Notes under the pieces: model-generated
The model's database searches: none
The model's input: the letters and a program-made list of their open reading frames with translations, nothing else
Told to the model about the DNA's origin: nothing
Made by a program: the position numbers and the translations under genes
Assembly (NCBI GenBank): GCA_947172415.1
Contig: OX359190.1
Location: 1,178,001 to 1,242,000, forward strand
DNA: 64,000 nt
Direction: 5' to 3'
Source of the DNA: Chondrosia reniformis
Taxonomy: Eukaryota; Porifera; Demospongiae; Chondrillida; Chondrillidae
Part shown: one piece after another, positions 24,701-62,900 of the stretch
How the letters are laid out: every line of letters begins with the position of its first letter
Position numbering within the stretch: position 1 is the first letter of the stretch

Positions 24701-27700
24701 CAGTATGTCAGCTGTGCCTGTGTGGGGGGGACTGGAGTAGTATATTAGTTACCTGTGTGGGGGGACTGGAGTAGTATATTAGTTACCTGTGTGGGGGGAC
24801 TGGAGTAGTATATTAGTTACCTGTGTGGGGGGGACTGGAGTAGTATATTAGTTACCTGTGTGGGGGGACTGGAGTAGTATATTAGTTACCTGTGTGGGGG
24901 GGACTGGAGTAGTATATTAGTTACCTGTGTGGGGGGACTGGAGTAGTATCTTCTCTCTTATCACAGGAACCAGTAGTTCTTGCATTTGACATTGAGACCA
25001 CAAAGCTTCCCCTCAAGTTTCCAGACCCTTCTCTGGACGCCATTATGATGATATCATACATGATAGACGGTCAAGGGTACCTCCTGATCAACAGAGAGGT
25101 TGTCGGAGCGGATGTGGAGCACTTTGAGTATACCCCCAAACCAGAATATGAAGGTCCTTTTACTGTCCACAATGAACCGGATGAGGTACTGTACATGCAA
25201 ATATGTATACATGATGTGTAATTAATTTTAATCTACATGTGGTTTATTTTAATTAATATACACGCTATATAGTTCATTTTAATTTCTCCCTCTCCCTCCC
25301 TCTCTTCCTCTCCCGCTCCCTCTCCCTCTCCCTCTCCCTCTCCATCTCCATCTCCTTCTCCCTCTCCCTCTCCATCTCCATCTCCCTCTCCCTCTCCCTC
25401 TCCCTGTTCACTTGTCCAATTCACTATTTTGTTTATCTCCTCTACTACTCTGCCTCCCTTCCTCTCAAAGGTGTCCATGTTGAGACGATTCTTTGATCAC
25501 ATTTTGGAGGTCAAACCCAACATTATTGTCACATACAATGGAGACAGTTTTGATTGGTCAGTGCTTAGCAATGTCATGTGCTATATAACCTGTCAATCAA
25601 GAACTTTATATCAAGAATTGTAAAGTTTTCTCTATACTGTATTTTAAAGTTTCACAACTGGCAAGGTACATAAATATCAAAATGTGCTGTTTTAACGGAT
25701 TGTTGGGTGATCACATAATTCAACTAATTCAGTTTAAAAATAATATAGGACTATTAATTGATATTCATTGATAAATAATTAATTCTTTCCCTCTCAACTG
25801 GTGACAGGCCCTTTGTGGAGTTCCGTGCGGCCCACCATCAAATCAACATGTTTGAAGAGATTGGATTTGTTCCTGATTCTAAGAACGAGTACAAGTGTAG
25901 ACCAGTGATTCACATGGATGCTTTCAGATGGGTCAAACGAGACAGCTACTTGCCTGTGGGGAGCCAAAATCTTAAAGCTACTACCAGAGTATGCACCTCA
26001 TTAATACTAGTATCTATCACATGGGTTATAGTATTAATTCTGTTAGGGTAGATAATTTATATATATATTGTATGTCATGGTATGTAATATAAATGTGTAG
26101 GCTAAGCTGAGATATGATCCGGTGGAACTTGATCCGGAAGATATGTGCAGAATGGCAATAGAAGACTCACAGGTACAAAGTTCAAAGGCCATATGCCATA
26201 TATCTTGCACACATATGCATAATAAACATGACTGTGATTTATAAGCTAAATGTACTTAGTATCGTGTATATGTTACAAGTCCGACGTGTCTGGTGAATAT
26301 TCAATTTAATGTACATGGCCCAGTGGAGAAGAAGAGAAGTAGAAGGAGAAGACTCTTGTATCCTCATCCATAGCTCTCACTAGGTTTAGTTCCCTATAGG
26401 CCTTTTACTATAGAATAGATGTAGCATGTAAGAAAAATGGTGTGTTAGATTATTCTTGTTCGTATGCTTACAATTTCCTTAGACATACATGATTTTTGTA
26501 TTTTATATGAATTTATATGATTACTGTGTGTAGGGATTAGCTAACTATTCTGTATCAGATGCGGTTGCAACATACTACCTGTACATGAAGTACGTCCACC
26601 CGTTCATCTTTGCACTCTGTACCATCATCCCCATGGAACCGGATGAGGTGTTGCGAAAGGGGTCAGGCACCCTCTGTGAGACGCTCCTAATGGTACAAGC
26701 TTACCATGGCAACATAATATTTCCAAACAAGCAGACACAAGTAAGTGAAATTGCTTTATTAGAAACCTCTTTTTTAAGAGAAATTTTGTGTACGTCAGTA
26801 AAACATATATACAGGAAATGTTGTTTTAGTTTGATAATGTGTATTTATTTTTCCTAAGATATCTTATTTATTTGTTCAGAAATACCCTAAAATATCTTTT
26901 AATAATTCATTGAAGGAATATTTATAGGCAGTAGTAATAGGTTGGTGCTCATCAATAGTGTTTTTAAATATATTGTGCCAATACATACATCTGGACAGGG
27001 TTTCATTCAGGGGGGCATTTCCCCCCGGCCCCCCTCCCCCTAGGATTTGGGTTGCATGGATGAAACCCTGCTGGATATTTATGAATGAATGCCTTATGTC
27101 TATCCTTTAAAGTTTGTAATCATCCTGTTACCTAGCAACCATGTGTACCTAGACACAAGGTTATGATTTGTTGTGCTTGTTGACAATTCTGACAGGATTT
27201 GAGCAAGCTTACCAATGATGGGCACTTAATAGAATCAGAGACCTATGTCGGCGGCCATGTTGAAGCACTAGAAAGTGGAGTGTTCCGCAATGATATTCCA
27301 TGTCATTTCAAAGTGGATCCAGAAGCCATACAGGAACTGATTGATGGAGTTGAACGAATAGTCAGACATGCTGTGGAGGTGGAGGAGAAGGTGACGATAG
27401 AGGACACTATAAATTTTGAAGAAGTGAGCCAATTTGAGTAGACATCTTTCAGAGTAAAATATTTAGAAGCTCCAAGGAGTAAGGAATGAAATTTTATTTG
27501 TTAAGATTTTCCTAATTGTGTATCAAGCTTCAGAAATATGAACTGAATGGTTTCTGAAAATATATTTCTTTTATTTATTGTAAAACCCTTAATATTAACA
27601 TCCATTATATTTAGCTTTTTAAACATGAAAAATCTAAGATACGTACCATTTTCTCACATGCTATGCCTATTCTGTAAGTCAGTCTTCTTCTTCTGAGCCT

Positions 27701-59900: not shown

Positions 59901-62900
59901 ACCTATATCCTATACTGACCATATGTAGACCTCATTATCTGAACACCTCTACATGTGTACCCTATATCCTATACTGACCATATGTAGACCTCATTATCTG
60001 AACACCTCTACATTAGTTGTACCTATAACATTATACATTATTTTCGTACTGTATGATTTCTCATTCAGTAACACACTAACTGAACAGATTACGTATCTTT
60101 CGGATGTTTTGACCCCTGGATCTTTATTAGCACTTACGTATCTACTGTACGTACGTATATATGTATATATGAAAAATCTAATATACCATTTTCCTACATG
60201 CTATAATGCCTATTCTGTAAAAGAGCCTATAGGGGAACTAAACCTGAAGAGAGCTTTGGATGAAGATACAGGAGTCTTTTCCCTTCTTTCATCTTCTTCT
60301 CCACTGGGTCAGACAGCCGTTTCTGGGAATTCCACCCTTCATCAGTGATCCTGGGAGTCTTTGTCTTTTTCTTTATCTTGATCTTCTGTGAATCCTTGGC
60401 ATTCATGCATATCATTCATATCATTTTCCCTGCAGAAGGGGAAATAATTTAATCCTTTGTATACTTTAATTGACACATTTACCAACCTTTACAACACCAA
60501 GTTTTTCCATGTTTCTATACAGTGTAATATATAAGGGTTTCAGTTTAATAACAGAACTGTTCATTCTTGGACTTTGTACAAATCTGTCTCTAAACACTTG
60601 ATTTCTGTTGTCATGGCAACTACACATACCAATTTAGAGTCAATTTAGAGACCTTGAATAATGAACATTGACTATCAACCAAGTGCTTGGTTGAATAAAA
60701 GCATTCTTAATCACTCAACCTTGGGACATTGTGTTTGAACTGCACAGTGGAGCTTCCTTGAGGACAAAATGCAGTCTTACTTAGTCAGTATTACTGTTGT
60801 ATCGTTATTGAAAAACCTCTTACCACATCTTCCTTCTTCACATGTTGACCACTGGTACAGTGCACATTGAGAGCTTGTGTTACTCCATACCCTATTACAA
60901 TAACACCCTAGCCAACCTTTTGCGGCTCCAAGGGGGGTTTGTTATCAAACAGTTCAACTGTATACATATATATAAATGAAAATCTAAGATACCATTTTCC
61001 TACATGCTATATGCCTATTCTGTAAAAAGAGCCTATAGGGGAACTAAACCTGAAGAGAGCTTTAGATGAAGATACAGGAGTCTTTTCTTCCTTCTTTTCC
61101 TTTCTTTCATCTTCTTCTCCACTGGGTCAGACAGCTGTTTCTGGGAATTCCACCCTTCATCAGTGATCCTGGGAGTCTTTATCTTTTTATCTTGATCTTC
61201 TGTGAATCCTATATCCCGTATGTATGTGATGGTAAGGGAGGGTGAGGGATGATGGGGGATGGTATACCAGTTGGTTGAGAAGTGTACCAGTTGGTTGAGA
61301 AGTGTACCAGTTGGTTGAGAAGTGTACCAGTTGGTTGAGAAGTGTACCAGTTGGTTGAGAAGTGTACCAGTTGGTTGAGAAGTGTACCAGTTGGTTGGTT
61401 TCATTCCACACATAGCTAACCTGTGAGACCTTGGGACAACAACTTGGAGACAGTGTCGAGCTGGAATGTGACATACTCTAATAACAGCAATCACTGTCAT
61501 TTTTCTCACCTGTGAACAAAGTAATTTTATTTGACTACAAGAACTTTAGCTAATGGAATCAATTTCTTGTCTTGGAGTATCTTGAAGGACTTGACTCTGT
61601 TGAAGTGTAGCTAATTTAAGATAGGGCAAATTTCATCAAAGATTGGTTAATCTACAAAACAGGATGTAGAGATGCTATTAATAAATGGAATTAGATAATA
61701 TAGATACATAGATGGATAATTGGAGATAATAGATAGTTTAAATATGACCCATCAATATTTGTTATATACGTAGAAAGTAGATCATCCATCAACATACGTA
61801 CAGTACATATCACTGAGTTTAGTTCCCATAGGCCTTTAATTTAACTCCATGTATGTAAATATAGAAAATATGGTGTACTATTACTCATATACATTATTAG
61901 GTTTCAAAATTGACTAGATGCAACCCATCACTGCATGACAAGTGATAATCAAACCACAAGTACTTATAATCAACCTCATATGAAGAGAAAAAAAAAGAAA
62001 AGGAACATTATTGCACTAAACAATGAAGTCCTGCCTGTGGGACTGAAGTCCTATTAAATAAGAACCTTTAATTAAATAGTTTTCCTTAGTGGTTGATATA
62101 TTCAATAAGTGAAATAGGCCCACAGACTTTTCAGTGACCTAATTTAGTTTCATGATATCAAAGTGGCACCCTTACAATTTGAAGGGTGACTGGTCTAATG
62201 TTTGAAATTCTTCACTTACACTGAGTAAATATATTGGTTGTCATGTCAGTGTAGAATTTGTTATTATGTCGGCATATTACTTTATCAAGGCGAGTAGTCA
62301 TGAGCTCCCTCCCCCTTCCACTAACATTTCATTTTTGTGGGCAACAAGTACAAATATTGTATCTACTGTATAATCCATATCACTCTAACCATAGTATTTA
62401 TACAGGTTTATGTGCATGTGTACGAATTGTATATACGTATACATTACTTTATATGACATATTCAATATGTATATGTGATTAGTGCAGACTTCTTTGCATG
62501 TGTACATAACGACTAAGGTTTGTCACTCAAATACAAAACTGTTATTCCTAAATTGTGCAAAATAGATATAAATGAAGTGCTCCATTTAGTAAAATTAACT
62601 TTAATCACTTCCAAAGTGGTTGGATTTCAGTACTAAGGCTAGTATAATAGAGGTTTAATAATAAGAACTTATATGCACTCTTTCCTCAGATAGTGCAAAG
62701 GTTGATCTGTATTGAATAATTGAGGATCTAAAACTATACTACTTTAGTTTGCACTGTAATTAATATAAATGTATATAAGTATTTACTTTAATATGTATTT
62801 GTGTACATACATATGTGTAGGTATACAATTGTATTTCTGCAGATACAAACTGGTGGAGTATTCCTCGGATTTGTCACAAATAATTCAAGTGAGTTTCCTT

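Follow-up and report, generated by a model that had tools for sequence, protein, structure and literature searches.

The stretch of DNA analyzed here is a 64,000-nucleotide segment of the genome of the sponge Chondrosia reniformis (contig OX359190.1, positions 1,178,001 to 1,242,000 of the forward strand), hereafter called the window. Dispersed through it is a short interspersed nuclear element (SINE) that carries a hammerhead-like motif at its center, and some copies of this element begin exactly at the base that follows the predicted scissile bond. The SINE family is genuine, measuring ~225-260 bp in working consensuses and numbering thousands of copies in the genome. Searches of 117,379,552 bases on 15 contigs, which define all genome-wide counts given below, return 1,343 exact heads and 2,831 exact internal anchors (GTTTAGTTCCC(N)TATAGG); because the head and anchor patterns read backwards each return 0 matches, the family is not due to chance. 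Each element consists of a head, (GCC)AAGGATTCACAGAAGATC, the central hammerhead-like core, and a tail, AGATTTTT or AGATTATT, followed by CAT. As is typical of SINEs, the copies are short, dispersed, non-coding and numerous; their 3′ end is constant, and truncation affects the 5′ side. Four subfamilies can be told apart: A, which carries GGATCA/TGACCC; A2 and B, which carry GGGTCA/TGGCCC; and C, which has its head and center in common with the others and a different 3′ half (TTTGCCCTAAGTCATTAGTCTAAG). Subfamily A is regarded as young because it is the least diverged in the tree described below.

A preliminary description of the window, made from its letters alone, had placed a dispersed family of at least eleven copies (a to k) here, and its observations are partly confirmed. 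Comparison of copy c with the window returns 13 rows, copy c itself counted, which bears out the family at these places. Two copies start precisely at TGGCCCAG, with the base that follows the predicted scissile bond, as had been described: copy a, of subfamily B (26316..26455, + strand), has this T at 26316, and copy h, of subfamily A2 (47597..47690, − strand), has it at 47690. Copy f (46555..46688, −), described as starting near the bond, indeed begins with TGGGCCCAG at 46688, at most one base from the bond and one base out of register. Four copies are full length, namely copy c (31932..32158, −), with an exact core at 32072-32105 and a predicted scissile bond at 32072/32071; copy d, of subfamily B (37204..37443, −), the core of which is degraded; copy j (60169..60400, −), of the young subfamily (GAAACGGCTGTC, TGACCC); and copy k (60976..61210, −), with an exact core at 61130-61163 and a predicted scissile bond at 61130/61129. 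Copy g, of subfamily A2 (47006..47193, −), has its 5′ end upstream of the hammerhead and a degraded core, while copy i (48849..49050, +) joins the head and a variant hammerhead to a divergent 3′ half. Copy b, of subfamily B (30052..30165, +), is 5′-truncated downstream of the hammerhead, and copy e (38468..38585, −) is either truncated or internally deleted. In addition, there are 3′ fragments of subfamily A (27625..27718, −), subfamily A2 (56642..56708, −) and subfamily B (51928..51986, − and 58342..58422, +), and divergent fragments akin to subfamily C (44188..44561, −). Two details of the earlier account did not survive. Both ends were said to be common to all eleven copies, whereas the head GGATTCACAGAAGATC occurs only five times in the window at up to 3 mismatches (3 exact, 2 with two mismatches). 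The string CTGATGA...GAAACAGCTGTC, which had been assigned to copies c, d, g, i, j and k, is exact in c and k, but only variants of it are found in d, g, i and j (AGGAAAAGCTGG, ATAAACAGATGTC, ACAGCTATC and GAAACGGCTGTC). A third exact match in the window, at 41857, belongs to another element.

In the center of the SINE, a 53-nt stretch, GGGTCACTGATGAAGGGTGGAATTCCCAGAAACAGCTGTCTGGCCCAGTGGAG, is identical in the computed majority letters of A2 (n = 9), B (n = 18) and C (n = 5), some of its positions holding a majority of only 0.55-0.67, and the center of subfamily A (n = 20) differs by three substitutions, the A in GGATCA, the G in ACGG and the A in TGACCC. The core of a type I hammerhead is made up of CUGANGA, GAAA and UH, with cleavage after H17, and each of the four subfamilies carries CTGATGA, GAAA and GTC in its majority sequence (n = 20, 9, 18 and 5). 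Predicted stem I has 6 pairs in the older type (GGGUCA/UGGCCC), and 5 pairs plus an A-C mismatch in subfamily A (GGAUCA/UGACCC). In some copies the element extends farther upstream as ...GGCGCCAAAATAGTGTATATAAGGCCCCTAGATTTAGCATAGAGAGCC (L017, two copies in L033, related but diverged in L039, and partly in L045, L038 and L035), and in a few longer copies a TATATAA box is seen by eye ~34 nt before the usual head, so the usual head is probably the transcription start. Target-site duplications are clear in few copies (15 bp in L037) and mostly consist of a short CAT(G).

The distribution of 5′ ends was examined with offset 0 defined as the first base after the scissile bond. The sample comprises the window and 50 loci picked solely by the downstream anchor, which together hold 105 copies (125 including 20 selected ones); by best-matching consensus, the 105 unselected copies divide into B 40, A 31, A2 21 and C 13. 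After curation, the sample contains 55 truncated 5′ ends between offsets −60 and +105, and 6 of these lie at offset 0, compared with a mean of 0.30 per position elsewhere (P = 7e-7). The six copies are those at window 26316 and window 47690, L046:4934, L009, L042, and the duplicated locus L050/L048, of which L009, L042 and L050 count at offset 0 only through resets by eye. Such resets, to a TGRCCCAG-like start, were made in several copies where local alignment had produced spurious upstream matches (L009, L042, L050:4485 and L048:4395 in the sample; L053, L058, L059, L065 and L066 in the selected set). Ambiguous copies (L045:3469, L050:7508 and L036:1525) and duplicates (L048:4395 and L050:4235) were dropped, and L022:1499, L049:9300, L033:3996 and L036:5029 were reassigned. 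When the window, as the source of the idea, is left out, 4 of 43 truncated ends still lie at offset 0 (P = 1e-4).

A second, genome-wide measure compares places where all three bases before a given point are non-consensus with places where they are intact. At the scissile bond, the older TGG type (TGGCCCAGTGGAG) yields 107 non-consensus places against 668 with an intact GTC, and the young TGA type (TGACCCAGTGGAG) yields 56 against 1,520. A control point inside the hammerhead that has the same TGG start, GGG|TGGAATTCCCAGA, yields 12 against 1,980 intact, giving odds ratios over this control of 26 for the TGG type and 6 for the TGA type. A second control 8 nt downstream of the bond, CAG|TGGAGAAGAAGATGAAAG, yields 3; its string is longer and so misses more of the mutated copies, and no intact total accompanies it. 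Reading of 20 of the 107 TGG-type places shows 16 clear starts at the bond, one ambiguous place (L053, preceded by GGGTCA) and 3 full-length copies with a local change (L055, L062 and L064); the flanks of L058 and L059 are in common and mark a single event. The TGA-type counts were made without flank reading, and at least 1 of the 56 places is a full-length element, window copy d. Seven of the 107 places belong to an array at C2:757 kb, and another 15 form a run at C2:2.46-3.56 Mb. The array and the run were each collapsed to one, which is cautious for the run because L057, within it, has flanks unlike those of L058 and L059. After this collapsing, and with 15% removed as false, the fraction is 0.109 for the TGG type and 0.037 for the TGA type, compared with 0.006 for the control.

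The sharpness of the peak was assessed with the pattern HDVNNNNNNCCCAGTGGAG, which has 352 matches against 68 for a reversed control. Among the 100 matches listed, 85 were typed, the other 15 being repeats of one array at C3:7.26 Mb. These listed matches give 66 distinct contexts. The start falls on the base right after the bond in 29 of them, one base upstream of that in 5, three bases upstream in 2 and one base downstream in 4; a further 14 and 12 fall on the two positions beyond, where matches by chance accumulate. The 29 include three variants of the C2:757 kb array and four full-length copies that carry a local change, without which 22 remain. Short tandem arrays with CCCAGTGGAG were seen in the genome assembly (G000) at C2:756967-757404 and C3:7259516-7260075, with a spacing of mostly 25 or ~31 bp; the C3 array possibly has no relation to the SINE. 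Thus, the sample histogram, the controlled flank counts and the single-base listing agree on a sharp genome-wide peak of 5′ ends at the scissile position, as the preliminary description had anticipated. Its further claim that some copies derive from self-cleaved RNA is supported through this peak. We consider it likely that, in vivo, a slow hammerhead cleaves some of the SINE RNA and that the 3′ product nevertheless undergoes retrotransposition.

A start at TGG could in principle also be favored without any cleavage, if the TG(G) of the element joined the CATG target duplication through microhomology. Of 100 listed TGG-type places, 45 have ACA ahead of TGG, 15 of these within the C2 run, and ACA stands ahead of TGA in 18 of 56 places. 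At L057, an insertion within an inverted SINE copy, a CATG duplication that overlaps the TG is directly visible. In 8 of the 22 cleaned listed contexts CA stands before TG, and there the CATG target duplication overlaps the element, making the exact end ambiguous by up to two bases. The remaining 14 of the 22, however, lack CA before TG and include CATG|TGACCC and CATG|TGGCCC, and L009 reads CATGT|TGGCCC. In addition, the TGG control site (12 against 1,980) and the TGG 8 nt downstream (3) offer the same letters. Because other TGG positions lack such a peak, microhomology would aid joining rather than choose the end, and as the source of the peak it is already disfavored and very improbable.

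Rather than a cut in the RNA, a stall of the reverse transcriptase at the folded hammerhead-like junction could end the complementary DNA (cDNA) at this point. The site is a helix junction, and 3 of the 55 truncated copies start with CAGTGG at offset +5. This offset marks the outer edge of stem I, where a structural stop would be expected. Such a stop is, however, expected at this outer edge or after copying of C17, not between C17 and the next base, while the listed contexts favor starts right after the bond over those one base earlier or one base later by 29 against 5 and 4, or by 22 against 5 and 4 when array variants and full-length copies are removed from the 29 alone. Drop-off is an unlikely source of the peak. 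It is slightly less probable still that a host endonuclease, instead of the RNA itself, cuts the exposed pyrimidine at the junction, which would leave the model otherwise unchanged. The bond follows an unpaired C, a position at which RNase A-like enzymes favor cutting, and judged on paper the motif makes a poor hammerhead. Yet no other position in the sample holds more than 3 of the 55 ends, and the majority core of CUGAUGA, GAAA and GUC is the same in all four subfamilies despite their differing 3′ halves.

The short copies are asymmetric about the bond. Copies that end on its 5′ side number 0 genome-wide, as judged by one exact 16-letter string (CCCAGAAACRGCTGTC) followed by three non-consensus letters. 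Such a result is expected if copying is confined to the RNA fragment that bears the 3′ tail. Breakage of the DNA there should leave behind reciprocal halves and is disfavored, with 0 found by the same string. Cut-site copies with a readable tail (14 rows, one tail unclear) end at the SINE tail with no run-on into a head. A retrozyme or circular intermediate is likewise disfavored, as the cut-site copies stop at the SINE tail and 0 copies end at GTC. At L036:1525-1637 and L053, upstream letters of the SINE are apparently joined straight to TGGCCCA, producing internal deletions bounded on one side by the scissile bond that are perhaps template jumps from cut RNA.

The cut-site start also recurs among the subfamilies. 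A tree of 57 copies from A, A2 and B (17 cut-site and 40 full-length, in which L048 and L050 stand for a single duplicated locus and L058 and L059 for a single event) requires 13 label changes compared with 15.0 in shuffles, a value as low as 13 being reached in 69 of 500 shuffles, and a single clade of cut-site copies is rejected. Cut-site rows fall in the A2 and B parts of the tree, where their scatter among full-length copies argues that short copies arose repeatedly, and a 19-row, nearly all-A branch contains none. Subfamily C copies with the same start are L060, L061, L065 and L066. This recurrence bears on whether one short master gene that already started at TGGCCCAG made all of the short copies. 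Local duplication did multiply some of them, as in the C2:757 kb array (7 places) and at L058/L059 with their common flanks, and a master gene would fit the branch of young A copies in which no cut-site copy is found. The reading of cut-site copies in A2, B and C, together with the number of changes required by the A/A2/B tree and its rejection of one clade, speaks against it, making a master gene the least credible of the alternatives considered here.

From the sequences we infer an RNA intermediate, a promoter, folding as a dimer and catalysis of the cut by the ribozyme. Transcripts would start near (GCC)AAGGATTC, ~34 nt downstream of the TATATAA box, and end in AGATTTTT or AGATTATT. Part of this RNA would fold as a type I hammerhead, either alone or as a dimer held together by the palindromic stem III, ACAGCUGU, and would then cut itself between GUC and UGG or UGA. 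The 3′ product of ~140 nt (longer in subfamily C) would retain the tail required by the reverse transcriptase and could be copied into CAT(G) targets, creating a genomic copy that begins with TGGCCCAG or TGACCCAG, while the tailless 5′ product would leave no copy.

Several observations, in addition to the CA- and ACA-preceded starts described above, weigh against self-cleavage. Truncated ends up to two bases from the bond (6 copies) are found as well as the 3 at offset +5. In the motif itself, stem II is limited to 3 bp (GGG/CCC) above an A-A mismatch at positions 10.1/11.1 in all four subfamily consensuses, where active hammerheads usually have G-C, and stem III, ACAGCUGU, forms only 2 pairs and a tetraloop as a monomer; in the older type it is palindromic, which suits a dimer. 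The hammerhead fold evaluates to −9.8 kcal/mol for the older type and −3.7 kcal/mol for young type A, but the minimum-energy folds of the three SINE cores tried differ from the hammerhead, and these cores folded alone are no more stable than shuffles. Rfam hammerhead models return no match to the SINE copies in the window at E up to 1, nor to a 116-nt piece of copy k when E values up to 10 are allowed; in ten loci totaling 100 kb, the SINE is likewise unmatched at the gathering score. Target-site duplications of at least 5 bp occur in 17 of 80 copies, not clearly above shuffled pairs (mean 10.9, maximum 18), in a test that is weak because the targets themselves favor CATG. Taken as modeled, the central domain of the SINE is a weak hammerhead at best, and full-length RNAs would therefore survive. 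The share of cut copies is 3-4 times higher in the older type, which has the more stable predicted hammerhead. That a weaker ribozyme makes fewer cuts is suggestive only, because age and repeat clusters confound this contrast.

Other elements were noticed in the window and in the sampled loci. A second, canonical type I hammerhead is located at 41851-41895 (+; Rfam 35.3 bits) in an element spanning 41760-42050 that is flanked by a 34-bp inverted repeat. The core pattern of this hammerhead has 109 matches genome-wide, several of them in inverted pairs, with tandem matches spaced ~359-362 bp apart at C4:3837454, C7:2773361 and C11:3075609, and the element looks like a member of a retrozyme-like family. 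Related duplicated stretches are found at L050:6600-6930 and L048:2034-2614, with a retrozyme-like block only in L050, and could possibly represent an occupied and an empty site. A 158-bp near-perfect inverted-repeat hairpin at 28266-28423, to which two microRNA families matched below their gathering scores, is probably a miniature inverted-repeat transposable element. A long minisatellite at 52657-53855 consists of repeats of FPSLHGCLPFPL and similar units, with three frames open and no sign of a gene. At 19285-20199, an open reading frame resembling the reverse transcriptase of a retrotransposon without long terminal repeats was recognized by eye, with an FADD motif, and its lineage is a possible candidate helper for the SINE.

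More broadly, and as a tentative proposal that we think somewhat doubtful, the center of this SINE superfamily may be a self-cutting ribozyme, perhaps acquired from a resident retrozyme, whose strength governs the fate of the family. Here, cuts would yield headless copies, and the youngest subfamily would have expanded after a stem I mismatch and a G-U in the dimer stem III weakened the hammerhead. If this is true, the 5′ ends of dead genomic copies would reveal, for each subfamily, how active the ribozyme is in the animal. A position-specific 5′ end peak in retrotransposed copies would be a record of germ-line cleavage that needs no RNA sample, could be counted in any genome and could be compared across ribozyme variants. 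If confirmed, this would make in vivo hammerhead activity testable through genome statistics.

By analogy, the closest known systems appear to be the schistosome Sm-alpha/Sj-alpha SINEs and the retrozymes. Sj-alpha of Schistosoma is a SINE-like retroposon with a hammerhead. Sm-alpha is described as SINE-like with a type I hammerhead, and copies that start at the cut site are not mentioned in the portions of that source drawn on here (PMC8490949). Set side by side by description, Sm-alpha and Sj-alpha resemble the sponge element in being short, SINE-like and hammerhead-bearing, whereas the sponge core is degenerate, with A-A at the base of stem II. Metazoan retrozymes are described as non-autonomous elements with a type I hammerhead and units of ~150-300 bp that, like Penelope-like hammerheads, are widespread in animals (PMC7761336). 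Retrozymes occur as tandem units and spread by way of circular RNA, while copies of the sponge SINE are mostly single units; the retrozyme-like element at window 41851 and the SINE have the same stem III letters, ACAGCUGU. The minimal hammerheads of Penelope-like elements have a weak or missing helix III, are proposed to act as dimers and are dispersed by the thousands in animal genomes, and the in vivo role of such minimal hammerheads has been termed a mystery (PMC7761336). For a Penelope element of Anolis, as reported in the parts of that study used here, RNA-seq reads neither start nor stop at the cut site, cleavage depended on the protein, and unprocessed RNA is the main template (PMC11167929). 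In contrast, DNA copies of the sponge SINE do start at the cut site. Among the matches listed from open-access literature, with subscription journals mostly outside its reach, there was no sponge hammerhead SINE and no account of copies truncated at a hammerhead bond, and those on MetaSINE and sponge SINEs contained nothing on this element. Ribozymes resembling that of hepatitis delta virus (HDV) in the RNA of the R2 and L1Tc/NARTc retrotransposons set the 5′ end of their copies. For R2, the result is the proper 5′ end of a complete element, whereas in the sponge SINE the putative cut lies mid-element and would give rise to a headless, shortened copy. The R2 element is described as carrying such an HDV-like ribozyme (PMC3414825).

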